A stretch of DNA of 49,497 bases from contig JAIORV010000208.1 of NCBI GenBank assembly GCA_021107945.1, forward strand, positions 1 to 49,497. The letters run 5' to 3'. Source of the stretch: Vulcanimicrobiota bacterium. Its GTDB lineage: Bacteria > Vulcanimicrobiota > JAJTBE01. Under the pieces are notes generated by a model. That model made no database searches. It saw nothing but the letters and a program-made list of their open reading frames with translations, and was not told the DNA's origin. The position numbers and the translations under genes are program-made. Positions 2,722-43,967 of the stretch are shown here, one piece after another. Position 1 is the first letter of the stretch, and each line of letters begins with the position of its first letter.

Positions 2722-2855
2722 TCCCTTTGACTCCTTTCTCGGAAAAATAATACAATGACCACTCCAATATATTCTTAACATGAGTTACGCATTATGTCAT
2801 TCCTTCGCGGAGCCTGCCCTGGAGCTCTGCGAAGGATTCAGGACAGGCTCTGAGC

Positions 2856-9329: not shown

Positions 9330-9379
9330 TATTGCAATATCCAGGGTAAAATTGAGAATTATTGGAGTTTATTCTAATG
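9330..9379 (+). promoter_or_regulatory. Conserved leader with TATTGCAATA palindrome upstream of GTPase 2
   Basis: The ~50 bp before the ATG are conserved with those before the gene at 11412 (see 11364-11414). They include the perfect palindrome TATTGCAATA at 9330-9339, a GGTAAAATTGAG block and the ribosome site GGAG 9 nt before the start. The palindrome could be an operator. It could equally be a relic of the gene duplication. Confidence 0.4.
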
Positions 9380-11363: not shown

Positions 11364-11414
11364 ATATTGCAATATCCGGGGTAAAATTGAGGATTATGGG
11401 AGCTTATTCTAATG
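11364..11414 (+). promoter_or_regulatory. Conserved leader with ATATTGCAATAT palindrome upstream of GTPase 3
   Basis: This leader matches 9330-9379. Here the palindrome extends to 12 bp (11364-11375). GGGAG precedes the ATG by 9 nt. Its role is unproven. Confidence 0.4.
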
Positions 11415-15359: not shown

Positions 15360-15384
15360 TATCAACCGGGAAAGGAAGGATAAA

Positions 15385-17400: not shown

Positions 17401-17440
17401 AAGAAAATTTCAATCTATATGAGAGTTAATCAGGAGTGAA

Positions 17441-18787
17441 ATGGATATGCAATCAGAGGATAAGCAGATTGATATGAAAAGTCTCAAAGGAAAGACAATA
17501 GCGGGGCATTATCGGCTGGATAACTTTCTTGATGAAGGCGCATTCGGCGCGGTCTATAGAGCTTCCCACATTGCTTATGGCGTGGAATTGAGAGAGGTTG
17601 CCGTTAAATTATCGAAACGCCCGCTGAAGGATGACTCTAAGGCGCGTGAAGTATTCAGGGACGCGCCGACTATGGCAAGCATAGCTGAAAGCACTCCGGA
17701 TCTTGAAATGAAAAGCCACTTTGTTACCGTGTATGATGCAGGTCGTTGTCCCGAGGGCGAACCGCTTGCAGGGCATCCTTATATCGTAATGGAGTTTATA
17801 CCCACGGGAAGCCTGAAGCGTTGCATCAAGGCCGGGCGGTTTCCCCTTACCCGGACGATGAGATACTTTGATCAAATATTAAGAGCGGTGGCATTTATGC
17901 ACACAGAAGTGACAGGGGGAAAGCCAAGGGATTGTATCATTCACCGTGATTTGAAGCCGGACAATATCCTGGTCGCCAGGGAAGAAAACTCCCCTGACAT
18001 AGTCAAACTCACAGATTTCGGCATAGCAATCGAGACCGGGACGCTCCTCGGTTGGGTCGAGAGCGGCGGGGACCTGGCATACCTTGCGCCGGAATCATTT
18101 TCCCATAACATCTGCTCGCCTCAGAGCGATGTCTATGCAATGGGACTTATTTTTTATGAAATGTTGACAGGTAGAAATCCCTTTTCAGAAGTGGGAAGTC
18201 ATTTGAAGGGGACGAATGAGGAGAAACGTAAAGAATTGCGTCGTATTCATTTAGAAGCAAGGCGCATGGAGAAGTTCAGACTTCTGGAAGATCACGAGGA
18301 GATTTCCAGACATCCGGAAATCGGGAAAATTATCCGAACCACCCTACAGGTGGATATGATTGCCCGGAAATACAGGAATGCATGTGAATTGTTGGAGGCC
18401 TGGGAAAGAGCCCGGAAAGGCGAAATCAGGATTGACGATGAAAAACCCTGGGAGACTGTCCTCCGCCTCACGGGAGAGGCGGAGCAGTGTCTTGCGTTGG
18501 GAGAATATAAGCAGGCTACCAGACTATTGGAACAAGCAATGGAAATAAACCGGAACAGCACACAGGTTCCAGATCCGATGGTTGTAGGCAAATGCTATCT
18601 CATGACGGTCACCCGTTTACTTGAAATCGGGAAAAATGAGGAAGCGGGTAAGCTTGCCTTCGAGGGATATCACCGACGAAAGTGTCCATCAACATGCAAG
18701 GCGATGGAAGGATTCTACAGGTCGCAGAAATCGAAATTGGCTTCCCGTTTTCAACGGGAAAGCCAGGAATGTGAAGACAGGGAGTAG
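17441..18787 (+). CDS. Hanks-type Ser/Thr protein kinase with C-terminal TPR-like region
   Basis: This is a complete eukaryotic-like kinase domain at ~23-300: glycine loop DEGAFGAVYRA (~31), VAVK with Lys56, HRDLKPDNIL with HRD at 168-170, DFG at 192-194 and APE at 216-218. All the key catalytic residues are present, so it is probably active. Residues ~330-430 contain TPR-like helices (ALGEYKQATRLLEQAMEINR). There is no transmembrane segment, unlike PknB-type receptors, so it should be cytosolic. It lies 40 nt after the AAA+ gene and 6 nt before the next. Likely substrates are neighbouring chaperone or GTPase components; this is inference. The start ATG follows CAGGAGTG. Confidence 0.93.
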   Translation: MDMQSEDKQIDMKSLKGKTIAGHYRLDNFLDEGAFGAVYRASHIAYGVELREVAVKLSKRPLKDDSKAREVFRDAPTMASIAESTPDLEMKSHFVTVYDAGRCPEGEPLAGHPYIVMEFIPTGSLKRCIKAGRFPLTRTMRYFDQILRAVAFMHTEVTGGKPRDCIIHRDLKPDNILVAREENSPDIVKLTDFGIAIETGTLLGWVESGGDLAYLAPESFSHNICSPQSDVYAMGLIFYEMLTGRNPFSEVGSHLKGTNEEKRKELRRIHLEARRMEKFRLLEDHEEISRHPEIGKIIRTTLQVDMIARKYRNACELLEAWERARKGEIRIDDEKPWETVLRLTGEAEQCLALGEYKQATRLLEQAMEINRNSTQVPDPMVVGKCYLMTVTRLLEIGKNEEAGKLAFEGYHRRKCPSTCKAMEGFYRSQKSKLASRFQRESQECEDRE

Positions 18788-18793
18788 TCTATC

Positions 18794-20149
18794 TTGGGAA
18801 TAAGTAAATCAGAATTAATGGAAATGGTTGAGGAAGCACTCATTATCGTACGTGAGGCGATTGAATACTCTCATCCTGCAAATGCCTGGAAACTGCTCCA
18901 GGAATATGATAATGACGGCAACGCCCAAGGGCCGCTACCATATACGGATGAAGCGATTATTGAATTCACAAGGGCATATAATTACTATCCCGGGGATTCG
19001 GGGGTCGTACATCATCTTGCCATAGCACATCACGCCCGTGCCTGGGATTTCGAGATTCAAAGAGATTCACGGGCATCGGAGGAATGGAAAAGAGCGCTGG
19101 GATTCTGGCGAACTTTGGTCAATTCCGGAGAATTCTGGACATGCATGAAAAATAAACTGAGTGCATGCGATCCAGATATAGATCCCTCGATGATTGACCA
19201 AGCACGAATGAATCTACTTGAAAACCTGCTGGATATTCATGTTGATTTTATATGCCATTATTGTGAGTGTGAGGAGCAGGAAAGGGCGGTCGATCACAAG
19301 GAAATAATTATGAGAGCCCGCATACCTCCGGCTGTCAGAAAGAAGCTTATCAAGAGAGTTTTCCAGGTAATGACGGAGCCGGTCCCACAGGCAAAGGCTT
19401 CTCGTGAATACATCTCAGCCCTGACAATTGTGGAGCGATTCCTGGAATTGTTTCCGGACTATCTGTCCGCCCTGAGGATGCACGCCGATATCTGCATTGA
19501 CTGGGTTCGTGAGATGTCATACCAGGATAACTGGGATGATATTTTAAAGCTGGGTGAGCGTGCCTTGCCTTATGTGACAAGCCTGGAAGCACATTCCGAG
19601 CTTGAAGACGATCCCATGGCAAGGTTGGCGCTGGTGGAATTGATAAAAGAGTTTGTTGAACGAAGTCGGGATCGGGGAGCAAGGCATATGTGTATGGGTG
19701 AGTCCGGGGAAATTAGTGTTCCAGAGCGGGATAGAGCGCGCTCGTCGTTTAAATTCGGCATAAAATGGGGGCGAATGGGCTACCGCCATACTTCGTGCGG
19801 GTCGGATCTGCGAAGTTACCTGTCTGATTGTCTTCAGTTTCATATTATGTGTCTTCAACTGGAAGCCCGTGATGTGAATGAAGCAAATAAGGAATTAAGA
19901 TTGATGTTGACAACAATTCAACTGGAAGCCCGTGATGTGAGTGAAGCAAATAAGGAATATAGATTAATGTTGACTACAATTCAGCAACTTCATCAAAGTT
20001 CTTTCGAGGATATCGAGGAAGCGATGGAAGTATCACCTACGGATAATTCATTAAAAGAGACTCACAAGAAAATTCGTAATGACCTGGATGATATTGAATC
20101 CGCTATTACCAATCTGAGCCTGTTTGGTGATCGGGGGTGGATTTCATGA
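18794..20149 (+). CDS. TPR-like helical protein
   Basis: This 451-residue helical protein has no catalytic motif that I recognise. The region VHHLAIAHHARAWDFE...EEWKRALGFWRTLVNSGEFW (~70-115) resembles the TPR-like segments found in bacterial proteins linked to Hsp70 genes. The start is TTG, supported by GGGAG 9 nt upstream, just after the kinase stop; ATG at 18818 is the alternative. A 63-bp tandem duplication near the end repeats 'LEARDVxEANKEx' in frame. The stop overlaps the next gene's start by four bases (ATGA), which implies translational coupling. The likely role is an adaptor in the kinase/chaperone operon. Confidence 0.75.
   Translation: MGISKSELMEMVEEALIIVREAIEYSHPANAWKLLQEYDNDGNAQGPLPYTDEAIIEFTRAYNYYPGDSGVVHHLAIAHHARAWDFEIQRDSRASEEWKRALGFWRTLVNSGEFWTCMKNKLSACDPDIDPSMIDQARMNLLENLLDIHVDFICHYCECEEQERAVDHKEIIMRARIPPAVRKKLIKRVFQVMTEPVPQAKASREYISALTIVERFLELFPDYLSALRMHADICIDWVREMSYQDNWDDILKLGERALPYVTSLEAHSELEDDPMARLALVELIKEFVERSRDRGARHMCMGESGEISVPERDRARSSFKFGIKWGRMGYRHTSCGSDLRSYLSDCLQFHIMCLQLEARDVNEANKELRLMLTTIQLEARDVSEANKEYRLMLTTIQQLHQSSFEDIEEAMEVSPTDNSLKETHKKIRNDLDDIESAITNLSLFGDRGWIS
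19856..19981 (+). repeat. 63-bp in-frame tandem duplication
   Basis: The unit at 19856-19918 is repeated at 19919-19981 with a few changes. Each copy encodes QLEARDVNEANKE... or QLEARDVSEANKE... The duplication adds 21 residues of helix without breaking the frame. Confidence 0.9.
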
Positions 20150-20631
20150 ATATCTGGCGTCGGGGAATACTTATGCGGAATCCCTATATTCGAACCGCAT
20201 TCCGTGTGGCGCGTGTACCCCGGGAGGCCCTGCGACGAACAACAATTATTCAGCTCATCTCCGAGACCCGGCGAATTATCCAGGCCAGTCCGGAAGCTCA
20301 TACCATTATGGGGGAACCGGTAACCGGGGCGGAAAACAATCAGGCGGAAAAAATCCTCCTGGATCCACGAAAGCGCATCCTCGAGGAACTATTGCATCAT
20401 GCCGGGGAGGCGGTTCCCCTGGAACAGGTGCGGAAACTTGCCGGGAGAATCGTAAGTGAGATGACAGTGGAAGAGGCAGAAGAATTGCCGGTCACAAACC
20501 TCAGGGGACTTGAAAGCTGGGCGCGGAAAATAGTGGAGAAGTTCCTGGAAGATAACCCGGGGCCGGATCCCTCGTTTGGATCGCTGGAAACGGGGATTAT
20601 ACCGCCTTTTGGGACAAGGGAGGATGAATAG
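20146..20631 (+). CDS. Small helical protein of unknown function
   Basis: This 161-residue protein has a basic N-terminus (MNIWRRGILMRNPYIRTAFR) followed by helices with acidic and basic patches. No known domain, cysteine cluster or membrane segment is seen. I chose the ATG at 20146 because it overlaps the previous stop as ATGA and follows a GGGGGTGG ribosome-like site; GTG at 20137 is also possible. It is co-transcribed between a TPR-like gene and a GrpE-like gene, so it is probably a subunit or cofactor of the same chaperone complex. Confidence 0.7.
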   Translation: MNIWRRGILMRNPYIRTAFRVARVPREALRRTTIIQLISETRRIIQASPEAHTIMGEPVTGAENNQAEKILLDPRKRILEELLHHAGEAVPLEQVRKLAGRIVSEMTVEEAEELPVTNLRGLESWARKIVEKFLEDNPGPDPSFGSLETGIIPPFGTREDE

Positions 20632-20632
20632 T

Positions 20633-21136
20633 ATGAATTCAGGATTGCAGATAAATAATAAACCCCGGGAAGATGTACCGGACAACCTTGCGGATCTTCC
20701 GCTTGTTACAATCGCCTGGAGAGCGATGAAGCAGGATTACCGTCAGAGACTTGAGGAGCGCAAACATTATCGGGATGAACATGAGCGTTTGCAGGATGTG
20801 CTTGTTGCCCTGGCGGAAGAGATATACAAAGTGCGTCTTTCGTCGGAAATCATATTGCCGGGAGCGGAGCAAACGGGGGGAAGCCTCCTGTTAAAAGAAC
20901 TTACCGCCATTGCCGGTAGAATGGAGGAAGCTCTTACCTCCGCGGGTATCGAGATTATTGCGCCCGCAGGTGCCACATTCACCACGGAATTAATGGAGAT
21001 GTTCGATAATGTCGCTCAGCTTCCAAATCCGGTTTTAACAGTACCTCGTATCGCCCAGATATTATCGCCGGCGATAATCTGCCGGGATGCGGTGTTGAGA
21101 ATGGGAAAAGCGGTAATTGAAGTGCCGACCTCATAA
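20633..21136 (+). CDS. GrpE-like nucleotide exchange factor, copy 1
   Basis: In this 167-residue protein, residues ~30-75 form a charged coiled-coil-like helix (AMKQDYRQRLEERKHYRDEH). The C-terminal part (~110-165, GIEIIAPAGATFTTELMEMF..., then ILSPAIICRDAVLRMGKAVIEV) follows the beta-domain pattern of GrpE (G-V-x-x-I-x-x-x-G-x-x-F-D ... R-x-A-x-V). GrpE proteins speed ADP release from Hsp70, and an Hsp70 gene starts 122 nt downstream. The ATG at 20633 follows GGGAGG at 9 nt. The assignment is by pattern only: the sequence is divergent. Confidence 0.65.
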   Translation: MNSGLQINNKPREDVPDNLADLPLVTIAWRAMKQDYRQRLEERKHYRDEHERLQDVLVALAEEIYKVRLSSEIILPGAEQTGGSLLLKELTAIAGRMEEALTSAGIEIIAPAGATFTTELMEMFDNVAQLPNPVLTVPRIAQILSPAIICRDAVLRMGKAVIEVPTS

Positions 21137-21258
21137 ACAAAAATTATAAACAAGAAATATGCACGAAAAACAACATGAAATTACATCTAAAGATTATGGG
21201 CGATAATGTGTCAGTGAGATAATGAATTTAAAATATAATTTTCAAGGAGGTAAATTTT

Positions 21259-23808
21259 ATGAGTTATATAGTCGGAATTGACCTGGGGACAACTTACAGT
21301 GGGGTGGCGATACCTGAGGAGCGATCCGATGACGGTTTCTTTACTCTCAGGGAGTGTCCCGGTTGTTCAATAATTATGGATAAGCACAAAAATCGGATTA
21401 CCCCTTCAGTTGTTGCGGAAAATAACCGGGGTGAAATTGTGGTTGGTCAGTCCGCAAAGGGGCGTGCCGGTCTGACTCCCGAGCCTATCATGTTTGCAAA
21501 GAGGCATATGGGAAAGGACAAGACATATAAGCTTGCAAAACAGGGGACCCTGAGTCCGGTGGATGTTTCCATGCATATTCTGAAGTATTTAAAAAAGATG
21601 GCTGAGGAGAGGCTGGGAGAGCCTGTGAATGAAGCTGTGATAACGGTTCCTGCCTATTTTCCCCTTAAAGCGAAACAGATGACCGAGGAAGCGGGCAAGA
21701 GAGCAGGTCTGAAAGTGGCGCAGATTGCCCCGGAGCCTGTCGCCGCCGCCCTGATGTATTTTACCGGGGATACCCGGGATCCGCTCCGCATAATGACTTA
21801 TGACCTGGGGGGCGGTACATTCGATGTTGCAATCCTGGAAAAGAAAGGTGGGATTTTAGGAAGCGACTCGATACTTGTTTTTGACGGCGATCCAAACCTC
21901 GGGGGTTACATCTTTGACAAACTCCTTGCTAACTGGATTATAGACAGGCTAAATGAGGGAAACTATGATCTGAAACTGGATCATAATGATCCTAATGACA
22001 AGGCGATTTTCACCAAATTCATGGTTATAGCGGAACGGGTCAAGATCAAACTTTCAGAAAAAGAGGGCTGTTTTATACAGGAATATAACACGGGTATTAC
22101 AGACCACTCCGATGAGCCGATCTCTATTGACCTGGAGATTACCCGTGACGAATTTGAAGAGATGATCAAAGATGAGATCGAATATACCATCAAGATCTGT
22201 CGCCGGGCAATGGAGGAAAAGGCCGATATCCCGATTGATCCCGCAAAAATCGACGAGTTTATAATGGTGGGAGGATCCTCGGAAATTCCGCTGGTGGCGC
22301 GGCGACTGGAGGAAGAATTCGGTAAGAAGCCAAAGCTTATTGAGCCTAACCTCTGTGTGGCGCTGGGAGCCGCCATATTTGCCAGCACCGAGGGGAAAAC
22401 TTATGGTTGCCTGAAGCTTGACCCGGTTCCCGCTGAGACCGAGTTACAACAGATTTCAGTGACCGGGCGGATCGTTCCGGGAAGTGACCTGTCTGAGGTG
22501 GAAGGCTGTAATGTCAAGCTCCGGGCAAAGGACGGCTCATACGGAAAAGCCATAAAGGTCAAAGCAGGCGGTGGATTTGTCTTTCAGAACATCCCCCTGG
22601 CTTTAAAAAGTACAACAGACTTTATCATCTCGGCATCCACCGGGGCAGGCGTGGAAGTTACATCTCACCGGTTTTCCGTTACGCAAACTGATGAGCCGGC
22701 GACTACCGGACTGATTGCAAAGATTCCGAAGTTGCTTTCCAAGCCTATAGGGATAAGGTTCAGAGAAGGATTTTATCTTGTTGCCCCCGCCCGTACCCCC
22801 CTGAGTTTCGAGACGGTTGTTCAAGCTGAAACCGCTGATACAAGCGGCAAGGTTCGGATCTCCATAATTGAAGAGAATTACCCGCTAGGGGAGGTTGTAG
22901 TGGAGAATGTGCCAACCACCCTGCCCGTTGGAAGCAAAGTGGAAATCACTCTGGCAATTCATGAGAACTACAGCATTACAGGAAAAGCATATATACCTTC
23001 ATTAGCTTTGAAATCGGATAATGTGGTGATTAACATTCCCATTCCCCCACAAAAGAGCAGAGAAGAATTACGACGGGATTATGAGATGCTCTTGATGAAG
23101 GCGCAGAACGCCTTACAGGGAGCAAGTACCGTGCGGTTGTTTGATGAAGCCCGGGGTACCAGGTTGAAAGACCGACTGGAAGATTGTAAGAAAATGTTCG
23201 AAGCAAGGGATCCGGATCTCGCCAGGATACAGGACTGCCTTGACGAGATCGAGACACTTATACGGGAAATAACCGCCGGGTGGAAGCCAAATCCGCCCAG
23301 GTCCGTATTTGATCAAAAGGCGCAAGAAGCCCGGGAACTCCTCGCAAGGGCAATAAAACAGAAGCCCAAGATACTTGAGGACGGGTATGACGATCAACTG
23401 GAGGCTATACAAGAAAGGGCGAATAATGCATATAAAGAGCAGAACGCCGCAATGTGGAAAGACTCATTCAAGAAACTGGGAAGGTTATGCGATGAGCTAT
23501 ATGGAATCACCAGGCCTGCGGACGCGGGGCAGGCTCCTCCGGATCCCGCTCAAATCTTGCTCTCCCTTGCAAGAGAGCTTGAAAATTTCAAGAAACAGGT
23601 CAAGAATGATGATAAGGAACGTTATTTCAAATTTGAGCAGGATTTCAAAAATCTGTCCGATGATTTGAAAAAGATTGACCCCAAATCTCCGGATGCGATG
23701 ATTCAAATTCGGGATTGGTATGTAAACAAGTTTGGGAAATTGAAGGAAGAAGTCGAAAAATCCGTTCAAGAGGATAAGGACATAGGTGTTCCCAGGAAGT
23801 CTTCTTAG
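21259..23808 (+). CDS. Hsp70 (DnaK-like) with long C-terminal extension
   Basis: This 849-residue protein is longer than canonical DnaK (about 640). The ATPase domain is at ~1-380: IVGIDLGTTYSGVAIP, DLGGGTFDVAIL at ~182-193 and FIMVGGSSEIPLV at ~334. It carries an unusual insertion near residue 25-45 (FTLRECPGCSIIMDKHKN). Residues ~400-505 hold an extra beta-rich segment with a carboxypeptidase-regulatory-like flavour (VEGCNVKLRAKDGSYGKAIK), then a substrate-binding-like beta region to ~600. A long, charged helical tail runs to the end. The gene has a consensus ribosome site (AAGGAGG) and a 122-bp gap before it. It presumably pairs with the GrpE-like protein at 20633. This is not the housekeeping dnaK context. 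Confidence 0.92.
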   Translation: MSYIVGIDLGTTYSGVAIPEERSDDGFFTLRECPGCSIIMDKHKNRITPSVVAENNRGEIVVGQSAKGRAGLTPEPIMFAKRHMGKDKTYKLAKQGTLSPVDVSMHILKYLKKMAEERLGEPVNEAVITVPAYFPLKAKQMTEEAGKRAGLKVAQIAPEPVAAALMYFTGDTRDPLRIMTYDLGGGTFDVAILEKKGGILGSDSILVFDGDPNLGGYIFDKLLANWIIDRLNEGNYDLKLDHNDPNDKAIFTKFMVIAERVKIKLSEKEGCFIQEYNTGITDHSDEPISIDLEITRDEFEEMIKDEIEYTIKICRRAMEEKADIPIDPAKIDEFIMVGGSSEIPLVARRLEEEFGKKPKLIEPNLCVALGAAIFASTEGKTYGCLKLDPVPAETELQQISVTGRIVPGSDLSEVEGCNVKLRAKDGSYGKAIKVKAGGGFVFQNIPLALKSTTDFIISASTGAGVEVTSHRFSVTQTDEPATTGLIAKIPKLLSKPIGIRFREGFYLVAPARTPLSFETVVQAETADTSGKVRISIIEENYPLGEVVVENVPTTLPVGSKVEITLAIHENYSITGKAYIPSLALKSDNVVINIPIPPQKSREELRRDYEMLLMKAQNALQGASTVRLFDEARGTRLKDRLEDCKKMFEARDPDLARIQDCLDEIETLIREITAGWKPNPPRSVFDQKAQEARELLARAIKQKPKILEDGYDDQLEAIQERANNAYKEQNAAMWKDSFKKLGRLCDELYGITRPADAGQAPPDPAQILLSLARELENFKKQVKNDDKERYFKFEQDFKNLSDDLKKIDPKSPDAMIQIRDWYVNKFGKLKEEVEKSVQEDKDIGVPRKSS

Positions 23809-23840
23809 ACATGATAAATTCAGTCGGGGAAGTGATAAAT

Positions 23841-24296
23841 ATGTATAGCTGTCCGGCTTGCGGCAAGGAAGATGTCACGGGTCAGATCACATGTATCAGG
23901 TGCGGCACTGATCTGTCTCTTTTAAAGACTCTGGATTCCGTTGCCGACGCATGGTTCAACCGTGCGTTGAAGGAGATTGACGACGGCAATTCCGGCAGGG
24001 CGATACAATGGCTCTCTGCCTGTTGCGCCGCCCGTCCCATGGATGCGGAAGCTTTACGAATCAGGGCAAAGGTCTGGGGTATGCTGGGGCATTGGAAAGA
24101 AGCTCGGTACTCCCTGGAGGAAGCGCGGGAAATTGATCCCGATGCCCTGGAATTAAAAGAGATTGAAAGTGCGTTGCAGGTTATGGAAAAGCAACATGAA
24201 GAAAAACTACAGGAAGAAAGGTTAATGGGAAAGGTCTCACTTAAAACGGTACGTCGATCTACACGCAGGAAGAAGAATAAGAAAAAACGGAAGTGA
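23841..24296 (+). CDS. Zinc-ribbon / TPR protein
   Basis: This 151-residue protein starts with a zinc ribbon (MYSCPACGKEDVTGQITCIRCG). A TPR-like helical segment follows (~30-100, including DSVADAWFNRALKEIDDG and GHWKEARYSLEEAREIDP), and the C-terminal tail is highly basic (RRSTRRKKNKKKRK). The ATG at 23841 follows GGGGAAG; 23811 is a longer option. It sits between two Hsp70 genes, so it is likely a cochaperone-type adaptor. The basic tail could contact nucleic acid or acidic lipids. Confidence 0.75.
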   Translation: MYSCPACGKEDVTGQITCIRCGTDLSLLKTLDSVADAWFNRALKEIDDGNSGRAIQWLSACCAARPMDAEALRIRAKVWGMLGHWKEARYSLEEAREIDPDALELKEIESALQVMEKQHEEKLQEERLMGKVSLKTVRRSTRRKKNKKKRK

Positions 24297-24338
24297 CAGT
24301 GCCGATAAGAAATAATTTGATAGAAAGGAGAGACTGTA

Positions 24339-26429
24339 TTGGATAAAATTGTTGTTGGAATAGATCTCGGGACGACATTCTCATCTGTTGCTTATGTGGA
24401 CAAAGAGGGCATGCCGACGGTCATTCCCAATGCCGATAATAAAAACTCCACACCGTCGGTGGTGTTGATTGAGAACGGTCAGATTACCGTCGGCGAGATT
24501 GCCCTCAATCAGTGGGTAACCAATGAAGAGCATGTTGTTCGCTGGATCAAGCGCTCCATGGGATCCCCCGATTACCGGTTTCAGGGCATGTCGGCCGTTG
24601 AGATATCCGCGGAGACGCTGAAGTCTCTGAAGACCGATGCGGAATTGTTTCTGGGTATGCCCCTGGATGAAACTGTAATCACCTGTCCTGCCTATTTTAA
24701 TACTATAGAGATTGAGAATACAAAGATTGCAGGTGAAATGGCGGGCTTCAAGGTGCGGGAGATTGTAAAGGAGCCTACCGCCGCGGCGGTTTATTACGGA
24801 ATCGAGGAAATGAATGACGGCGAAACCATTCTGGTCTGCGACCTGGGGGGAGGTACTTTTGATGCGACAATATTGAAGCTGGAAAATGGTGTATTCAAAC
24901 CCCTTGCATCCATGGGAGATCGTGAGCTTGGCGGTCACGACTGGACAATGAGCCTTGTCGATATGATTGCCGGGCGTTTTTGGGAAAAATTTAACGAGGA
25001 TCCGAGGGATGATCTCGTGGCAGGTCAGATGTTATATGAAGCGTGTGAGAAGGGCAAGCGTGACTTCTCCAAACTTGCATCGGTGATGATTCCCTGTATG
25101 CATGAGGGCAAGATGGAGCAGTTCATGGTCAGCCGGGATGATTTCGAGAAAAACACCGAATGGCGAATCCAGGAATTGGTGATGTGGTCCGAGTTGGCGC
25201 TGGAGAAAGTGGGAATCACCTGGAAGGATATAGACCACATCTTACTTGTCGGCGGATCCAGTCGGCTCAGGAGGATGGCGCTTGCGCTGGAAAAAGTATC
25301 AGGAAAGAAGCCCAGGCCTGGCAGGGAACCTGATTTTATGGTAGTGAAGGGAGCGGCGATTCTCGCCCATGGAAGGGCACGTCCACGCAGACCGAGAGGT
25401 GGATTGGTGGAAGCTCCCGGTGCAGGTATCACGGAAATAATCTATGAGCGGATTATCACACGCAACTTCGGTACCCGGGCTATTGTGTTTGACGAGGACA
25501 AACCCAGGATAACGAATTCATTGATTATTCCCCACGGCACGGAATCGCCGGTTTCCCGATCAAGGGAAGACCTGGAAGTATCATCCGATAGTCAGGAGTT
25601 CTTTGACTTACCTATGGTTGAATTTGAATCCGACGAGGATTATGAGATAATCAATAATTATCGATTCAAATGCCTTCCCGGTGCAAGGCGTGGCGATCAT
25701 GTGAAGGTAACATTCCACTATGATATCAGTGGAATCCTGAGCGCAGACGCAATTGATCTTAATAGTGGGAAGTCCCTAAAAATGGAGCGTCTGCCATATG
25801 AGGAGCCTGACCTGGATAAGATTATCAGTATCAGGGTAAAACCGCGCTGGGTAGTCTTTGCAGTTGATGCATCTTACAGCATGGATGGTAGTAAAATGGA
25901 CAATGCCAAACAGGTTCTGAAGAGCAAGGCGCATGAACTCCTTAATATGGGAGGGGGAAATTACAAGGTCGGCATTGTCAGCTTCGCCTCCGATGCGGAA
26001 ATTGTATGTGATCCCACATCCGATCTTGACCGGATTGAGCAAAGTGTGGATAATATTTACACTTCCGGTTCGACAGCCATGGATGACGGGATCAGCAAGG
26101 CAATGGAAATGGTCTTGTCCTCGCCCGCAGGAATAGACCGGGATATTGTGATGTTGACCGATGGAATGCCCGATTCCGGCCGAAAGCAAAACACGGTGAA
26201 AGTTGCACAGGATGTAAAATCCAGGGGGATTACACTTTCCACCCTGGGAATCGGTAAGGATGATGTGGACCTTGATTTTCTTATGAGTCTGACTGAACTT
26301 TCGCTGGTGATTGATGCAGTGGATGGAATGGGAGATGCCGTGACCACATTACTGACACAGTCGGCAGAGCGCAGGGGCGGATTGATTGAAGCTCCAACCG
26401 GTGGATTATATGAAAAAAGGGGGGTATAG
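24339..26429 (+). CDS. Hsp70-vWA fusion protein
   Basis: This 696-residue protein has a complete Hsp70 ATPase domain at ~1-355 (VVGIDLGTTFSSVAYV, VCDLGGGTFDATIL at 167-180, ILLVGGSSRLRRM at 301-313). A reduced beta-rich substrate-binding-like part covers ~365-490. A von Willebrand A domain covers ~502-675 with an intact MIDAS: DASYS at 510-514, SGST at 576-579 and TDG at 607-609. The usual Hsp70 lid is absent and replaced by vWA. vWA domains bind partners through a metal ion; chaperone-vWA couples such as MoxR-vWA are known in conflict systems. The start is TTG with AAAGGAG at 8-9 nt. The next gene begins one base after its stop. Confidence 0.92.
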   Translation: MDKIVVGIDLGTTFSSVAYVDKEGMPTVIPNADNKNSTPSVVLIENGQITVGEIALNQWVTNEEHVVRWIKRSMGSPDYRFQGMSAVEISAETLKSLKTDAELFLGMPLDETVITCPAYFNTIEIENTKIAGEMAGFKVREIVKEPTAAAVYYGIEEMNDGETILVCDLGGGTFDATILKLENGVFKPLASMGDRELGGHDWTMSLVDMIAGRFWEKFNEDPRDDLVAGQMLYEACEKGKRDFSKLASVMIPCMHEGKMEQFMVSRDDFEKNTEWRIQELVMWSELALEKVGITWKDIDHILLVGGSSRLRRMALALEKVSGKKPRPGREPDFMVVKGAAILAHGRARPRRPRGGLVEAPGAGITEIIYERIITRNFGTRAIVFDEDKPRITNSLIIPHGTESPVSRSREDLEVSSDSQEFFDLPMVEFESDEDYEIINNYRFKCLPGARRGDHVKVTFHYDISGILSADAIDLNSGKSLKMERLPYEEPDLDKIISIRVKPRWVVFAVDASYSMDGSKMDNAKQVLKSKAHELLNMGGGNYKVGIVSFASDAEIVCDPTSDLDRIEQSVDNIYTSGSTAMDDGISKAMEMVLSSPAGIDRDIVMLTDGMPDSGRKQNTVKVAQDVKSRGITLSTLGIGKDDVDLDFLMSLTELSLVIDAVDGMGDAVTTLLTQSAERRGGLIEAPTGGLYEKRGV

Positions 26430-26430
26430 A

Positions 26431-27450
26431 ATGGATAAGACAGTTGATTCCGACGGAAAGAGTAAATTACTACTGCTGACCAATTCCGCAGGTGAACAAC
26501 AACCGGATTCAGGGATAATGAATCAGCAACAGGAAATGGGGGGATCTCCCATTCAACCTATAAATGAGGATCCCACTGAAGTTCAGGGGAAAAGTTATAA
26601 GGAATCCACAGATGAGTTAATGACAACTGTGGGAGATATCGCAGAGGATAAACCGATAACAAAACCTGACTTACCCGATACCACTGTTCCCGATATCCCG
26701 TTTCCTGATTTGGTTTCAACCACATTAATGAAAATCGAGATGGACATAAAAGAGGTTCAAGAGTCGTTCGGCAAAATGGGAAACCGTATTTCAAACCTGG
26801 AGTCCCTGGCGGAGAAAACCGCCAATCAGGTAAGCTACCTGCCTCCAAACGTTCGCATGCTGGGTAAAAAGATTGACGGCCTGACCACCTCGATCAGCGA
26901 AACACGTTACCGGGGATTACTATTGGATCTTCTTGGAATATTCGACCTTATCGATCAATTGCTTCTCTCGTCCCGGGACACAGAGCATTACAGCAGTGAA
27001 GATCATCGTCGTAATTATGAAATTTTACGCACACAAATTCGTCAGATTCTTGATGTCAACGAACTCTCGGAGATTTCCACCGACGGTTTCTTCGACCCGA
27101 AAATACACAGGGCAAAGGGAAGTATCCCTTGCGATGATCCCGGGAAGGTTAACCGCATATTGAAGGTATATCGCCCCGGTTTTCGCACAGAGGAATCAAT
27201 ACTGCGATTTGCCGAGGTTGCCATCGGGAAGCTTGAAACGGTGAAGATGGTAAGAAGCGACGATGTGATTCTTACAGGAAGACCAGCGGAAGTAAAATCC
27301 GAAAACAGAGTAAAACCGGATAAGACAAAAAAGCCTGGAGATGACAGTCCGGTCGCTGACAGAGATACCATAATGGAACCTGTTATCACCATGAAAGATT
27401 TTTTAGGGAAATCCGATTATATTCCCCCTGATTATGATATCCCTGATTAA
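26431..27450 (+). CDS. GrpE-like nucleotide exchange factor, copy 2
   Basis: This 339-residue protein has a low-complexity acidic and proline-rich N-terminal third, probably disordered. A long helix follows (~110-185, MGNRISNLESLAEKTANQVS and onward), with the GrpE core LLLDLLGIFDLIDQLLLSS. The typical beta domain is FFDPKIHRAKGSIP followed by VNRILKVYRPGFRTEESILR. This is a clearer GrpE match than the protein at 20633. GrpE dimers exchange nucleotide on Hsp70; the Hsp70-vWA stop is one base away, so the pair is probably translated together. The ATG at 26431 follows AAGGGGGG. Confidence 0.88.
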   Translation: MDKTVDSDGKSKLLLLTNSAGEQQPDSGIMNQQQEMGGSPIQPINEDPTEVQGKSYKESTDELMTTVGDIAEDKPITKPDLPDTTVPDIPFPDLVSTTLMKIEMDIKEVQESFGKMGNRISNLESLAEKTANQVSYLPPNVRMLGKKIDGLTTSISETRYRGLLLDLLGIFDLIDQLLLSSRDTEHYSSEDHRRNYEILRTQIRQILDVNELSEISTDGFFDPKIHRAKGSIPCDDPGKVNRILKVYRPGFRTEESILRFAEVAIGKLETVKMVRSDDVILTGRPAEVKSENRVKPDKTKKPGDDSPVADRDTIMEPVITMKDFLGKSDYIPPDYDIPD

Positions 27451-27562
27451 AAATGACATTATTCAGGTAGCCGGCAGGCGATTGCCCCCGGGGATCTTAG
27501 AAGTTTTATTTGTGTTCTTTGTGAAGAATAGATACTGTAAAATATGAAAGGAGATGAGATCG

Positions 27563-29122
27563 ATGACTGTTAGGTGTGGAATTGATCTTGGAACTACATA
27601 CTCGGCAATCTCATGGTATGATGACTTCAACAACCGACTGGAAAATATTGAATTACCATATATATCGGACGGTCAGAAAATGGTAAGCTCGGTGGTCTAT
27701 TACCCCGGCGAGGGGCAGGAGCCTGTTGTCGGCGATACAGCCTGGAATTCCGCCAGGCAGTTCCCTGAAAGGGTAATTGTGGGTATAAAACGCTCAATGG
27801 GACTCGATTATAAGACTCCGCCCATAGACGGAAAGGAATACACTCCCCAGGAAGTCTCCTCGGTTATCCTTAAAGCTCTGGCGGAGGATGCGGGAAAAAT
27901 ACTTGCCGAGGAGGTCAAGGATGTCATAATTACCGTTCCCGCCCATTTCGGGGACAATGAACGTGCCGCCACGGAAGAAGCGGGAAAAATGGCGGGACTG
28001 AATGTGGTAGGCATCCTATCAGAACCACATGCGGCGGCGCTTGCCTATTCGGTACATAAGGTTATGGATATTGTTGACAAATATTTACTGGTGTATGATC
28101 TGGGAGGCGGAACATTCGACGTCACCCTCATACATGCCACAACGGAAGAGGGCGCGGGTAATGCACTCAGTCTGAAGATCGAAACTCTATGTAAGGACGG
28201 CAACCGCGGACTGGGAGGATTGGACTGGGATAGGGTTCTTGCCGCAATTGTCGGGGAGAAAGTCATGCAGGAACATGGAGTTGATGTGAGAGATGATCCG
28301 AGGAGTGAGGCGATTCTGTTGGACAACTGCGAAAAGGGAAAACGATACCTGAGCCGGACTCGTAATGTTTCCATCGCCACCGGGGAAGGACACCAGGTTG
28401 ATGTTTCACGCTCCGATTTCGAAGATCGCACAAGGGATCTGGTACTTCAGACACGGTTGTTGCTGGAGCAGGTGGTAGATGATGCCGAAGAACAGCACGG
28501 TATCGAAAAGGACAAAATCGATGTGGTGCTTGCCGGGGGATCCACGAGAATGCCCATGATTCGCGAGATGATTGAAGATGTAATGGGTAAGCCTCCCATT
28601 GAACATCGGAACCCGGACCTGCTTGTAACAGATGGAGCGGCATACTGGGCGCATCTGTTGAAAGAAGGTGGAACTGTAAAAGCCATCGAGCGTAAACCGG
28701 ATGGTGGTATCGAGGAAAAAATTATAAGTGTTCCCACAGATGAAATGATCGATCTTTCCATGTATGCAATCGGCATCGAGGTTGTAAAATCCGACGGAAA
28801 AGGTGGATGGACAAACTTCAACAAGGTAATCTTGCCTGTTGGAACCAGATATGATGGCAAGATGATAAAAAAGGAGTTTTACACCGCCGAGGACGGTATG
28901 CAGGAGATCCACATCAGGCTTTACAAGGGTGATGTGGAATCTCTTGACGAATGTCAACGAATAATGACATTTATCATTACCGATTTACCGTCTGATCTCC
29001 CCAGAGGAACAAGGGTAAACGTGGAGTTAGGTTATGATAATAATGGTATCATCCGCGGCACGGCCCTTGTCGAGACTGGTCAGAAAGTTGATATTATTGT
29101 CGAAAGAGACAAGATAGTATAG
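27563..29122 (+). CDS. Hsp70, third paralogue
   Basis: This 519-residue protein has an ATPase domain at ~1-365 (CGIDLGTTYSAISWYD, VYDLGGGTFDVTLI, VVLAGGSTRMPMIREM) and a shortened substrate-binding beta domain at ~395-515. There is no helical lid. The absence of a lid suggests permanent or non-canonical client binding. The ATG at 27563 is chosen over 27554 because GGAG lies 9 nt before it. The next gene, whose product may carry a J-like N-terminus, starts 21 nt downstream. It is the third distinct Hsp70 within 8 kb, and the three are too diverged to be recent copies. Confidence 0.93.
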   Translation: MTVRCGIDLGTTYSAISWYDDFNNRLENIELPYISDGQKMVSSVVYYPGEGQEPVVGDTAWNSARQFPERVIVGIKRSMGLDYKTPPIDGKEYTPQEVSSVILKALAEDAGKILAEEVKDVIITVPAHFGDNERAATEEAGKMAGLNVVGILSEPHAAALAYSVHKVMDIVDKYLLVYDLGGGTFDVTLIHATTEEGAGNALSLKIETLCKDGNRGLGGLDWDRVLAAIVGEKVMQEHGVDVRDDPRSEAILLDNCEKGKRYLSRTRNVSIATGEGHQVDVSRSDFEDRTRDLVLQTRLLLEQVVDDAEEQHGIEKDKIDVVLAGGSTRMPMIREMIEDVMGKPPIEHRNPDLLVTDGAAYWAHLLKEGGTVKAIERKPDGGIEEKIISVPTDEMIDLSMYAIGIEVVKSDGKGGWTNFNKVILPVGTRYDGKMIKKEFYTAEDGMQEIHIRLYKGDVESLDECQRIMTFIITDLPSDLPRGTRVNVELGYDNNGIIRGTALVETGQKVDIIVERDKIV

Positions 29123-29143
29123 AAGTTTGCAGGGGGTTCTATC

Positions 29144-32100
29144 ATGACTGTACAAAAAGCAAAATCGAACAAGAAAGCGGCGTCTTCAGGAATGACGGCT
29201 CAGGAAGTAATTGATATGTTTGCAGAATTGGGTCTCCCGGTTTGCGATGACGGCGACGCTGTAGAAAAGGCTGTAAAAAAACAAAGAAGACGACGTTTGA
29301 GAGAAAAGCATAGTCCTGATCCCCATATTAGCCACCTTGCCGGTATATGGTTCAAGAACTTGGAGAAAATGAAGAACGATCGCCCGGAGTTGATCCCGAT
29401 TGTCTATGAAAGATTTTGCGGTCTTGCAAGTGTCGCTCTCGAAGGTGCGACGATAAACAAGATGACCCCGGAGCTTGCAAAGAGACTTCTTAATTTTGCG
29501 TACCAGGAATGCCGTGTTGATGATAAACTGGCAAGCCGGTTTCTCGATGACTATATGAGGGAAAAGGGAATAAAGAGAGGCAAACCCCTTGTACACCCCG
29601 CCCCTGTTACTGAATTTACCGCAAACAGTGGAAAAGGTGAAATTTCCCTGAGTTGGAAACTACCCGGCAAGAAATGTGACGAGATTGAGATAGAGCGTGA
29701 AGAGGTCTTCCCGGAGGCTGGAAAGCATGCAGGCGGGAAGTCTTCCCTGTCAAAAATCGATGTTACCACATTGGGGCAATTACACAGGATAAAGGTTTAT
29801 AATGGGCGGCGAACTTCCTGGCTTGATAAAGATGTAAATTCCGGAACCCAATACAGGTATCGGATACATTCAATCTTTTCGGGTTGTAAGGGTGTCGATA
29901 CTGTTGATAATGCGGTATGCATAGGCGAAGTGGAAAACCGGAACGCAAGGTGGAAGGAAGGAAGTATATGCCTTGATTGGAAATTGCCATCGGATGATGT
30001 ATCGGTACTAATATTCAGGCGGAAAGGCTCGTCCCCTTCCATCGGGACCGGGGCTGAAGGATTGGAGCCTACTGATGGATCTACACAAAATGTATATTGG
30101 GGAGTAAGTGACTCCTGGAAAGACTCGTCGGAGTTGACCGAGGGCGCAACATATTATTATAAAATTGTGCAGGATTTCGGAAAGGGAGTTTATTCCAACG
30201 GCGTAACCGTCTCGGTAGGAGTCCCCAAGCCTCCTCCTCCCGTTCCTTATGTTACCGCATCGTATAGTCCAGGTAAGAATAAGGATCAGGTATCATTAAA
30301 GTGGGGTCCCGCCCCCGGAAATGTGAATGTGGAGTATGTGGTGGTACGGCGCGACGGAAGCGATCCGCCGGGACGGGTAGAGGAAGGCATTAAAATCCTT
30401 AAAACACCGCAGACAGATCACCTTGACGAAAATGTCGTATCAGGCCAACGATATACTTACGCCGTGTTTACCAGGTCCGGTGAAATATATAGCCGGAGAG
30501 GAACGGCGTCATCACAGGTTGACATCCTCACCGAGGTGAGAGACCTGGAAGCGGAAGGTGGCGATGGAACCGTCGAATTACACTGGGAGATACCGGAAAA
30601 TGTTACGCGTATGAATATCCAGCGAAGCCTGGGACCGCCAAAAGATCACATGGACGGCCACCTTGTGACGACAACCGGCAAGGGTTATGCAAAGGACGAG
30701 GGACTCGCCAACAGCAGGCGTTACCATTACCTTGTATCCTGCGTATATCGTCCCGACGGAACAACCGATGTCTTCTCACCGGGTTCCCGGACTCAGGCGA
30801 TACCGGATCAGCCCCCGGACATGGCTGGGGATTTCACAGTTCAGGCTCACGGACAGGAGGTTCTTTGTAAATGGTCCCCCCCGGGTCATGGTAAGGCTGT
30901 GGTGATACGATCAGCGAACCCCCATGGACACCCGCCGGGATACCACCTGAAAAAAGAAGAACTGGACCTTCTCGGTGAACGGATTATCACTGAAAATGAT
31001 CAGGCATTGGACACTCATCCAGATAGGGAGAAACCATATTATAGTATTTTCACCGTAGCGGGGTCGAACGCCGTGGCGGGAGGTAAAGGCTGTTGTATTG
31101 TCTGTCCCGACGTTACAGGTCTTAAATTGACTGCCACAAGTGAAGGAGTGTCACTTCGCTGGACCTGGCCCGATGTATGCACATCGGTCGTAATTGCACG
31201 ACGCTTGAATACTTGGCCCGAGGGACCCAATGACCCGCAGGCAACCCGATTTGTCTGTGCCATTACCGAATACAAGACGGCAGGCGACAAGTTCCTCGAC
31301 GCAATTCAGCAGGAACGGGGAATGTACCACTATATTGTATATGCGAAGTGCTCCGGGCTTTCCGGCGGATTTTTCTCTCCGGGACAGGAAATGGGCTGTC
31401 GTAAAGCTGTTCAATGGGGTCCCTGGATGATCATACAATACAAGTTATCATCACCCCGGGAGAGATCTCATCGGGATAAGGATGTACTTCTCAACTGGAA
31501 TGTGGAAAAGCCTTTCCCTGATTTCTCAGGATTCGCTCTTGTTGCAAATGATCAAAGGATACCGTCATCTATAACCGACGGCATTGAAATATTTCGCTGG
31601 AAACCGGGGGAAGGTGAGGTTGCCGGAGAGCATGAGGATTGGATCAATATCGAGCCGATTCAAAAAGAACGCTGGGCAAGATTTTTCGCCAAGCTAATTG
31701 TCATCGACCCGATACAGGCTGATGCGACCCTGATCATCCACCCCAATATATGCGAGACAATTTCAGATAAGGGCGTGCTACAAACCTTCGTCGAGTATAA
31801 GATTGAGCGGGGAATGTGGCATAAATTTATCGGTTTATTCAAAAAGAAAATAAAGGGACGATATTGCTCCGGTGTACCAGATACAATTATCTGCCCCACC
31901 TGTTTCAGGGAGTTTCCAATATGCGAGATGAAATTCACCTCTTATGGCAGTGGAGAAGACCCCATTCCCGGAAAGCATACATTGATACATAAGATTTTGC
32001 GTAAACCTCCGGAGCCTCCCGTCATAAACGGAAAAAAACGCACCAAAAAATTATGTCCGGAAAGTGCTGATCATGTGTTACCGATTACCGCTGGGACACA

Positions 32101-32977
32101 TGGGAGCCTGATAATAGGATTGATCGGCGCAAAATTCAGCGGCAAGACCCATTATATAGCATCCCTTGTGAATCGCCTTGAGGGACAGGTTGGAAGGGAT
32201 CTTGAAGCGGCTCTCAATTCTGTAACTGAAATAACACAGGATCGATATAGAGATGATTTCAAACCATTATTTGAGACACTTTTACCACGCGGTGTCACAA
32301 TTGGTACACCGCCCCCCCTCATTTATGATCTAACAATAGACGGGAAACTATGGGGTGAGAATAGCGTAAGATCCGTAACCCTTGCACTTTATGAAACTGC
32401 GGGTGAAAATTTTAATGATCCCAAAGCGGTGCGACAGATGATTGAATATCTTAAGGTAGCTTCAGGAGTTATGTTCCTGATTGATCCATTGCAGTCAAAA
32501 GAAGTACGCAACCGGATAACGGATCAAACTTCAAGTCCTGAATTTTATGAGGAAGCTTCTCCAAATGAGGTAATCAGTCGCGTGCTTACAGAGCTTCAGA
32601 ATGGCGGAATTATTTCTCACGGAGGTAAGCTTTCGATCCCAATTGCATGTGTTTTTACAAAGTGTGATGTATTACGCGATTCCGGATTGATTGAGCCAAA
32701 TCGCCTCTGGAGCACCGACACAAGGCACATTGGTTATTTCAACATAGAAGCCCATAACGATATGGCGGGAATGATGGGTGAATATATACAACGATTGATC
32801 CCGGCGGCTTATAACACTGTAAGGCAGAGGTTCTCCCGTCATGCTTTCTTTGGTGTTTCAGCGACGGGATGCGCGCCGAACAAGAAAACCGGCCGATTTG
32901 ATTTTATCTCACCCTGGAGAGTCGAGGATCCGCTTTTGTGGTTGCTATACGAGTTGGGTGTGATACAGGGTCGGTAA
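29144..32977 (+). CDS. Giant FnIII-like / GTPase protein with possible divergent J-domain
   Basis: In this 1277-residue protein, residues ~17-95 are helical with a basic helix and a REKHSPDP turn, then LAGIWFKNLEKMKND. This resembles a J-domain whose HPD has been altered. Residues ~155-780 contain about six fibronectin-III-like beta modules (e.g. ISLSWKLPG, VELHWEIPEN, VLCKWSPPG, VSLRWTWPD). A beta domain at ~790-900 is shared with 33260. CPTC at 917-920 starts a zinc-like knuckle. The C-terminal GTPase has GAKFSGKT at 995-1002, a G3-like ETAG, and TKCD. It resembles the DO-GTPase1 family. It is probably a scaffold joining Hsp70 to a nucleotide switch. No signal peptide or membrane segment is seen. 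Confidence 0.85.
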   Translation: MTVQKAKSNKKAASSGMTAQEVIDMFAELGLPVCDDGDAVEKAVKKQRRRRLREKHSPDPHISHLAGIWFKNLEKMKNDRPELIPIVYERFCGLASVALEGATINKMTPELAKRLLNFAYQECRVDDKLASRFLDDYMREKGIKRGKPLVHPAPVTEFTANSGKGEISLSWKLPGKKCDEIEIEREEVFPEAGKHAGGKSSLSKIDVTTLGQLHRIKVYNGRRTSWLDKDVNSGTQYRYRIHSIFSGCKGVDTVDNAVCIGEVENRNARWKEGSICLDWKLPSDDVSVLIFRRKGSSPSIGTGAEGLEPTDGSTQNVYWGVSDSWKDSSELTEGATYYYKIVQDFGKGVYSNGVTVSVGVPKPPPPVPYVTASYSPGKNKDQVSLKWGPAPGNVNVEYVVVRRDGSDPPGRVEEGIKILKTPQTDHLDENVVSGQRYTYAVFTRSGEIYSRRGTASSQVDILTEVRDLEAEGGDGTVELHWEIPENVTRMNIQRSLGPPKDHMDGHLVTTTGKGYAKDEGLANSRRYHYLVSCVYRPDGTTDVFSPGSRTQAIPDQPPDMAGDFTVQAHGQEVLCKWSPPGHGKAVVIRSANPHGHPPGYHLKKEELDLLGERIITENDQALDTHPDREKPYYSIFTVAGSNAVAGGKGCCIVCPDVTGLKLTATSEGVSLRWTWPDVCTSVVIARRLNTWPEGPNDPQATRFVCAITEYKTAGDKFLDAIQQERGMYHYIVYAKCSGLSGGFFSPGQEMGCRKAVQWGPWMIIQYKLSSPRERSHRDKDVLLNWNVEKPFPDFSGFALVANDQRIPSSITDGIEIFRWKPGEGEVAGEHEDWINIEPIQKERWARFFAKLIVIDPIQADATLIIHPNICETISDKGVLQTFVEYKIERGMWHKFIGLFKKKIKGRYCSGVPDTIICPTCFREFPICEMKFTSYGSGEDPIPGKHTLIHKILRKPPEPPVINGKKRTKKLCPESADHVLPITAGTHGSLIIGLIGAKFSGKTHYIASLVNRLEGQVGRDLEAALNSVTEITQDRYRDDFKPLFETLLPRGVTIGTPPPLIYDLTIDGKLWGENSVRSVTLALYETAGENFNDPKAVRQMIEYLKVASGVMFLIDPLQSKEVRNRITDQTSSPEFYEEASPNEVISRVLTELQNGGIISHGGKLSIPIACVFTKCDVLRDSGLIEPNRLWSTDTRHIGYFNIEAHNDMAGMMGEYIQRLIPAAYNTVRQRFSRHAFFGVSATGCAPNKKTGRFDFISPWRVEDPLLWLLYELGVIQGR

Positions 32978-33259
32978 AACTTAATTATAGTAGTGAATAA
33001 CTTTAATCCTTTAATGCAAGGGAAAGCTAAAACTTTCCGCTAACAGTAAATGAGGATAATGTAATATTGCTAAAATTCAGTTTATCAATAATTTGGGTAG
33101 TTGCCGGTTATTATTCAGACCACCCCCCGATTTGGGTAGAGGCTGGTCTCCTGACCAGGCTTAAAATGGCATAAAATTGAGGTTGGGAAACCTCTCCTAC
33201 AGGATAGGACTGAATAAATAGAGTTGCCGGTCGGAGACCGACAACCGGAGAATAGTAAA
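32978..33259. other. Intergenic gap with palindromic repeats
   Basis: These 282 bp hold a diverged paired-hairpin repeat and, just before the next gene, GCCGGTCGGAGACCGAC, which can fold on itself. No gene is seen. Confidence 0.6.
33137..33201. repeat. Paired-hairpin intergenic repeat, copy 3 (diverged)
   Basis: It carries the stem GAGGTTGGGAAACCTC and the ending TCTCCTAC, as at 4443-4490. The first hairpin is replaced by a different palindrome (CTGGTCTCCTGACCAG). Confidence 0.55.
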
Positions 33260-39804: not shown

Positions 39805-39817
39805 GGAGATGGGTATA

Positions 39818-40990: not shown

Positions 40991-41339
40991 ATGGTTGAAC
41001 GTAAAAATGAAGATTGTAACTATTCAACCCCCTGGAATACTTGTCATTCTATTAGGAGGAATTTAAAATAAACCGCAAAGAAGCAAAGAAGAATATAAAT
41101 GAGTTATCATATAACATCATACAGATTTAGTGCCCGAACTTCTCGAATTTGCCTATGAACGATGTCTTTACTGGGAAATGGGAAGTGAGTGGGAAGTGGG
41201 AAGTAGAAAATGAGAGGAATCAAATACGAACGACAAAAGACCTTGGATGCAGAGTATAAGGGTATCAAAAGAATTGTCTATAATTTCTAAACTCGGTGGT
41301 ATTTGCGGTGAATAGATACAAAAGAAGGAGTTGGGTATA
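40991..41339. other. Intergenic gap between YidC-like paralogues
   Basis: These ~350 bp have no credible gene. They include a purine-rich GGGAAGTGAGTGGGAAGTGG stretch near 41180. The first ~30 bp (ATGGTTGAACGTAAAAATGA) match the start of the gap after the second copy, at 42402, so the duplication extended into the 3' flank. Confidence 0.6.
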
Positions 41340-43870: not shown

Positions 43871-43967
43871 AGTCGGATCGGGGAGGTTTTTCCCGAAGAT
43901 GACATTTGATGATTAGGTCTTCAAATATCCGGGTATCCGGTAATTCATTATGAAATGGGTGAGAAAT

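Follow-up and report, generated by a model that had tools for sequence, protein, structure and literature searches.

The closest described relatives of the locus reported here are the GAP1-N2 systems, a class that is already known as a prediction, HSP70 and GrpE included (Kaur, Burroughs, Iyer and Aravind, eLife 2020, PMC7159879). These GTPase-centric systems are predicted to act in conflict with invaders. Their DO-GTPases often come in pairs and have a zinc ribbon and membrane segments. HSP70/GrpE is a theme of about 14% of their gene neighbourhoods, kinase, phosphatase and von Willebrand factor A (vWA) genes mark another 10%, and a fusion of an FNIII protein to DnaJ or to TPR repeats is typical of theme 2 without defining it (PMC7159879). 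We analysed a stretch of 49,497 nucleotides from a Vulcanimicrobiota bacterium (assembly GCA_021107945.1, contig JAIORV010000208.1; hereafter the window), which encodes three Hsp70s and two GrpE-like proteins between positions 20633 and 29122. Domains, gene order and trees identify this block as the chaperone module of a GAP1-N2-type conflict system. The window spans one entire contig of an assembly in draft state, with 215 contigs and 3.6% contamination, and the evidence on the arrangement of the locus comes from this one genome, in which local misassembly is possible.

The window combines a GAP1-N2 protein, DO-GTPases, an FNIII protein, and HSP70 with GrpE. Its GAP1 protein (35118 to 38237, plus strand) matches GAP1-N2 family PF20013 at E=1.1e-14 and 55.1 bits against a cut-off of 24, together with a weak GAP1-M match (E=0.004). 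In the protein encoded at 29144 to 32977 (plus strand), a helical domain forms the N-terminus, and FNIII repeats are fused to a soluble DO-GTPase (DO-GTPase1, 2e-4). BLASTP aligns this protein with the FNIII protein of G012 at 99 bits, and its GTPase part scores 80-137 bits against GAP1-adjacent DO-GTPases. Pfam fn3 is not matched in the 29144 protein itself and is matched by three of the nine FNIII proteins beside GAP1 elsewhere to which it aligns; Pfam likewise found neither the DnaJ nor the TPR fusion of theme 2 on it.

A scan of GTDB with GAP1 returned 31 loci. In ten Actinomycetota loci, GrpE, a lidless Hsp70 of about 530-580 aa (amino acids), an FNIII protein, a DO-GTPase and GAP1 follow one another, with a membrane DO-GTPase after GAP1 wherever the contig continues, and GrpE lies immediately upstream of Hsp70 in 10/10. 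The window runs GrpE2, Hsp70-short, FNIII/DO-GTPase, a copy of the latter, GAP1 and DO-GTPase, which is the Actinomycetota order plus extra copies; Hsp70-short is thus the positional counterpart of the sole Hsp70 in the Actinomycetota GAP1-N2 loci. A tree built from 53 ATPase domains by maximum likelihood agrees with this placement: Hsp70-vWA and Hsp70-short group with the Actinomycetota GAP1-locus Hsp70s and a Rhodococcus plasmid Hsp70 (ultrafast bootstrap 100, SH-like approximate likelihood ratio test [SH-aLRT] 99), and Hsp70-1 forms a separate deep line outside housekeeping DnaK. The sequence-only reading of the window had recognised specialised Hsp70s, which stands, and had missed the GAP1-N2, DO-GTPase and FNIII context and the gene order shared across phyla.

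All three Hsp70 genes exceed the curated Pfam cut-offs, and their different C-termini are as first described. Hsp70-1 (21259 to 23808, plus strand; 849 aa; HSP70 E=1.8e-67) consists of the ATPase domain, an additional beta-rich segment of about 100 aa, the beta subdomain of the substrate-binding domain (SBD-beta) and a long helical tail. Hsp70-vWA (24339 to 26429, plus strand; 696 aa; HSP70 5.1e-82, VWA 2e-19) starts at a TTG preceded by AAAGGAGA and carries, behind its ATPase domain and SBD-beta, a vWA domain at the position of the alpha lid, with a complete metal ion-dependent adhesion site (MIDAS; DASYS from residue 510, T579, D608). Hsp70-short (27563 to 29122, plus strand; HSP70 4.6e-79; placed also by synteny and tree) measures 522 aa from the first ATG (27554) and 519 aa from the ATG at 27563 behind AAAGGAG; like its actinobacterial counterparts it stops after SBD-beta and is lidless. 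The presence of three Hsp70s in one such locus, one of them a fusion in which vWA replaces the alpha lid, is new. Limited searches of phylum genomes, plasmids, viral contigs and GTDB returned no second Hsp70-vWA fusion; in GTDB, the vWA half served as query of a pattern scan that relied on exact peptides and had low sensitivity, so that absence beyond the phylum is weakly tested. Acaryochloris plasmid matches that span 82% of the Hsp70-vWA query turned out to be an Hsp70 without vWA, and a Rhizobium vWA protein that the vWA half matched lacks an Hsp70 domain.

We then compared the J-domain interface in a residue table taken from a MAFFT alignment, with contact residues according to the DnaK-DnaJ complex reviewed in PMC8215388, in which D35 of the HPD motif bonds to R167 and Q378 of DnaK. 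No Hsp70 in the table, the three of the window included, deviates at the catalytic residues D8, T11, K70, E171, D194, T199 and D201. All 25 housekeeping DnaKs from the phylum have R167, N170 and Q378, as do DnaK, HscA and HscC of E. coli; in 13/13 system Hsp70s (10/10 actinobacterial and the three of the window) these three residues are replaced. The actinobacterial proteins carry D or N for R167 and F or Y for Q378; the corresponding pairs in the window are Q/F in Hsp70-1, E/L in Hsp70-vWA and G/W in Hsp70-short. The linker and K414 positions are also altered in the system Hsp70s, the linker columns being dependent on the alignment. This loss of the J-contact residues with retention of the catalytic ones is a new feature of GAP1-system Hsp70s. 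Elsewhere in the phylum, two relatives encode Hsp70s of 810-830 aa with R167E beside alaS (L048:3229-6071 and L050); in L048 the Hsp70 is followed by a 116 aa open reading frame (ORF) that is J-like by eye, lacks HPD and has no Pfam match.

The Hsp70s and GrpEs of the window, as a module of the GAP1-N2 system, may act as J-uncoupled, GrpE-paced nucleotide switches and impose a threshold on the GTPase/GAP1 apparatus; we give this reading a probability of roughly 0.6. The switch mechanism is one that we infer. The Hsp70s would be nucleotide-dependent conformational switches instead of general foldases, and because their ATPase site is intact, GrpE is supplied, and the HPD-trigger residues and the normal linker are replaced, they would cycle slowly, paced by intrinsic hydrolysis and GrpE and not by DnaJ-delivered clients, with the GrpE of the cluster serving ADP release. 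In one of their states, the Hsp70s could keep system proteins inactive or half-assembled, either the CHAT-TIR candidate effector described below or the assembly of FNIII, DO-GTPase and GAP1, and would be a threshold or timer on the latter. The vWA of the fusion protein might dock a dedicated ligand via its MIDAS and thereby take over the client clamping of the lid. Disturbance by an invader, be it client overload, phosphorylation by the kinase or a change of GTPase state, would shift Hsp70 occupancy, upon which the membrane GTPase/GAP1 machinery would fire the effector. A related case is bNACHT25, for which DnaJ/DnaK have been tied experimentally to phage sensing (PMC12169576); as an analogy, it demonstrates that immune sensing can draw on Hsp70 machinery, though by a J-dependent route. 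It is possible, and we propose it tentatively, that the GAP1-system Hsp70s form a distinct J-uncoupled, GrpE-paced class, and that Hsp70-vWA is a new kind of Hsp70 with a MIDAS domain in place of the lid and a chaperone cycle that directly gates an immune GTPase machinery.

No mechanism is known for the GAP1/DO-GTPase systems, whose role in defence is a prediction, and the consistent loss of the J surface, beside intact catalysis and GrpE, suggests in specific and testable form what their Hsp70s do. J-uncoupling, if true, would break the rule that functional Hsp70s depend on a J partner as their driver, and the Hsp70-vWA fusion points to a part that may replace client clamping.

Several points weigh against the switch reading. 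The literature that we searched holds no experiment on any GAP1-N2 system. R167 is also part of the interdomain clamp of DnaK (PMC8215388), so that its loss could reflect altered allostery instead of J-independence. The branches of all three window Hsp70s are long, and a common clade of the three is not rejected by the approximately unbiased (AU) test (p-AU 0.107). Only position and direction suggest that the candidate effector may belong to the system. Finally, a divergent J-like partner is possible: the HSP70/GrpE theme of PMC7159879 includes an FNIII protein fused to a J domain, and the N-terminal domain of the 29144 protein is helical, with a 'KHSPDP' between predicted helices.

The genes around the chaperone block allow another explanation, in which the locus is an auxiliary quality-control island: its AAA+ protein, Hsp70s, GrpEs and YidC-like proteins would form a machine for disaggregation under stress or for membrane insertion, and it would be proteostasis, not conflict, that the GTPase/GAP1 genes regulate. 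The gene at 15385 to 17400 (plus strand) encodes a Clp/Cdc48-type AAA+ ATPase with N-terminal Clp_N repeats (AAA_2 E=1.9e-36, Clp_N 5e-13; Walker A GQSGSGKT, Walker B VVLFDE), and with Hsp70 and GrpE this Clp_N-AAA+ makes up what looks like a disaggregase set. A YidC/Oxa1-like membrane protein (39791 to 40990, plus strand; 60KD_IMP E=3e-22) and a second, 70% identical copy (41331-42401), in tandem in the same run, are close by, and the anti-invader action of the genes is itself a prediction. However, the J interface is lost in all three Hsp70s, no J domain was found in the cluster and two of the three Hsp70s are lidless. GAP1-N2 is present in only 3/149 genomes of the phylum, unlike a core stress island. 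The quality-control explanation also has to accommodate the GAP1/DO-GTPases and the candidate effector of 1385 aa (43950 to 48107, plus strand), which joins CHAT (2e-24), Clp_N (1e-9) and TIR (TIR_2 2e-12), has the CHAT His/Cys motifs HYAGHA and FLNAC and shows a weak cyclase-like match. We therefore consider such an island rather unlikely. Clp_N is common to this candidate effector and the AAA+ protein at 15385. A relative of the latter is encoded upstream of GAP1 in Streptomyces loci (112-122 bits), where the GAP1 scan placed an AAA+ of the Clp type and an Hsp70-like protein that has diverged ahead of the DO-GTPase.

The Hsp70s could also be J-coupled after all, through a degenerate J-like domain, at the N-terminus of the 29144 protein or on a small protein, that co-evolved with the altered R167/Q378 surface. 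The J-FNIII fusions reported by Kaur et al. and the helix-loop-helix with KHSPDP in an AlphaFold model of the 29144 N-terminal domain (mean predicted local distance difference test [pLDDT] 61, a weak model) speak for this, as does an Acaryochloris plasmid on which a J protein with HPQ stands beside an Hsp70 with R167Q. A plasmid module of Rhodococcus, Hsp70 - J/TPR - GrpE - FtsK (NZ_CP070617, L060:11589-15195), resembles the window in that GrpE accompanies a short Hsp70 which the tree places outside housekeeping DnaK; it differs in having a recognisable J domain (PF00226 E=1.3e-8, with HPN replacing HPD) and an Hsp70 that keeps R167, N170 and Q378, and no GAP1 was seen in it. Retention of these residues beside a recognisable J partner speaks for the switch reading. 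This contrast in J partners comprises two cases only, the Rhodococcus and Acaryochloris plasmids. Against J-coupling, a J domain on the FNIII protein was supported neither by Pfam nor by a PDB sequence search nor by Foldseek, whose best E was 1.4, and we regard such coupling as distinctly improbable. The sequence-only reading had seen no classical dnaJ, hrcA or CIRCE element, and this was borne out: neither a DnaJ domain nor an HrcA family came up when the large ORFs of the window were scanned with Pfam, a CIRCE-like element had 0 matches at up to 3 mismatches, and the genome's four clear DnaJ genes all lie on contigs other than the window.

A chaperone relay, in which substrates are handed serially from Hsp70 to Hsp70 and each pair has its own cochaperone, had been proposed from the sequence on the strength of three tail types and two GrpE-like proteins in one run. 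GrpE2 (26431 to 27450, plus strand; alternative start 26386), which has a long N-terminal extension, is securely assigned by its profile match (PF01025 E=4.3e-14, 53 bits against a cut-off of 25.8) and its beta-domain motif FDPKIH...VYRPGF...ILRFAEV. GrpE1 (20633 to 21136, plus strand; ATG start with AGGGAGG upstream) is probably a divergent GrpE, judging from its position before an Hsp70 and a PF01025 match that stays below the cut-off (E=7e-4, 19.7 against 25.8 bits). An independent GrpE profile, built from 38 sequences of relatives and none from the window, ranked GrpE2 first (E=5e-17) and GrpE1 second (E=3.6e-4) among 113 window ORFs, and GrpE1 outscored 2000 of its own shuffles in this profile by a small margin (13.2 against 12.1 bits for the best shuffle). 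Alignment of GrpE1 to the GrpE alignment with hhalign gave a probability of 1%, a PDB search did not support the assignment, and neither did an uninformative AlphaFold model computed without an alignment (pLDDT 44). Apparent GrpE1 relatives in the phylum match no GrpE and carry the stretch 'RKH..DRGR..DSI..ERE', which we take to be RapZ-like; we regard them as chance matches. GrpE-like neighbours thus exist, as had been claimed, but a cochaperone for each Hsp70 does not, as there are two exchange factors and not three. Each counterpart locus has just one GrpE-Hsp70 pair, so the system needs no three-step relay, and the J-contact residues are missing; a relay is very unlikely.

That the block consists of duplicated housekeeping dnaK/grpE genes, for which the identity of the broad families could be cited, is the least credible explanation and can practically be set aside, since dnaK-grpE pairs are found elsewhere in the genome (contig 23 encodes a full-length housekeeping DnaK together with GrpE, and contig 103 a second pair), the window Hsp70s score 257, 287 and 270 bits with NF001413 (NCBIfam DnaK) against a cut-off of 648, and housekeeping placement is rejected by the tree and by the AU test for the two proteins tested, Hsp70-short (p-AU 0.003) and Hsp70-vWA (0.018). 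With the long rows removed and the window proteins tried singly, the grouping was unchanged (SH-aLRT 98, 98 and, for Hsp70-1, 86), and it kept SH-aLRT values of 96-98 when Hsp70-1 and the other long rows were left out jointly or singly. The available sequences thus support the view that the three Hsp70s are not housekeeping dnaK copies, and the earlier claim of specialised genes that do not group with housekeeping DnaK held in the ATPase-domain phylogeny. On contig 103 (L057:4963-7959), the protein adjoining the second DnaK is 998 aa long and ends in a GrpE domain.

The genes from 13059 to 29144 all lie on one strand with intergenic gaps of -13 to 122 bases, and ribosome-binding-like sequences support the starts at 20633, 21259, 24339 (TTG), 26431 and 27563; scans for promoters and terminators gave counts near the shuffled expectation. 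Guanine plus cytosine (GC) content is 46-50% across the 13-32 kb block against 39-43% on much of both flanks. This step, together with the rarity of GAP1-N2 in the phylum, is consistent with lateral spread but no proof of it; no GAP1 was found on plasmids. The first gene of the GC-rich block encodes a TPR-repeat protein of 766 aa (13059 to 15359, plus strand; Pfam TPR_19 E=3e-8). Behind the AAA+ gene follow, on the same strand, a Ser/Thr protein kinase (17441 to 18787; Pkinase E=4e-36) with intact catalytic motifs VAVK, HRDLKPDN and DFG, an uncharacterised protein for which domain searches were empty (18794 to 20149) and an uncharacterised ORF of 164 aa that overlaps the gene upstream (20137 to 20631). 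A zinc ribbon and TPR protein of 161 aa (23811 to 24296, plus strand; TPR_2 7e-8, Zn_ribbon_3 9e-5) is encoded between Hsp70-1 and Hsp70-vWA. HEAT-repeat proteins at 121-2781 (minus strand) and 42446-43870, about 40% identical to each other, flank the cluster.

The DO-GTPase at 33224 to 34978 (plus strand) is a second copy of the C-terminal half of the 29144 protein (54% identical); its P-loop reads ASKYSGKT and it has no TKCD motif, for which reason it may be a non-catalytic partner. The membrane DO-GTPase behind GAP1 (38254 to 39804, plus strand; DO-GTPase2 1e-3, below cut-off) has hydrophobic N-terminal segments in hydropathy plots and is 25-33% identical to the paralogues at 6752 and 11412, both of which pass the PF19993 cut-off. 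These belong to three tandem membrane DO-GTPases on the plus strand at 6752 to 8299 (PF19993 E=1e-9, above cut-off), 9362 to 11248 (sub-threshold) and 11412 to 12935 (E=4e-6, at cut-off). The latter two are 78% identical across the GTPase part, which by sequence marks a recent duplication. PF19993 is also sub-threshold in 29144, 33224 and 38254; P-loops are present.

Compared with the DnaK-GrpE pairs of its own genome (contigs 23 and 103), the window shares the ATPase fold, the catalytic residues and a GrpE adjoining Hsp70, whereas those pairs retain the lid and intact J-contact residues and fall into a separate clade. With the MoxR-vWA (VMAP) ternary systems it has in common an AAA+ and a vWA within one conflict-type locus; its AAA+ (15385), however, is of the Clp type (AAA_2/Clp_N), its vWA is carried by an Hsp70, and Pfam scans of the window found no VMAP family. 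The cassettes of the Actinomadura/Pseudofrankia type (L069, L075, L079-L082, L084, L088-L090) show the same gene order and the same loss of R167, N170 and Q378, but have one Hsp70 and one GrpE and separate FNIII and DO-GTPase genes, and no Hsp70-vWA was seen in them. The GAP1-N2 theme of Kaur et al. (PMC7159879) likewise comprises GAP1-N2, DO-GTPases with N-terminal hydrophobic segments, FNIII, and HSP70 with GrpE. That theme sometimes includes a second HSP70, while the window has three; kinase and vWA belong to another theme of the class, while the window has vWA fused to Hsp70. The window differs further in that SBD-beta is retained in its shorter Hsp70s despite the lost lid, in that its FNIII protein has no recognisable DnaJ, and in that a Clp_N AAA+ and a kinase are encoded in the same run; it unites features of themes 2 and 3, which do not overlap according to Kaur et al.

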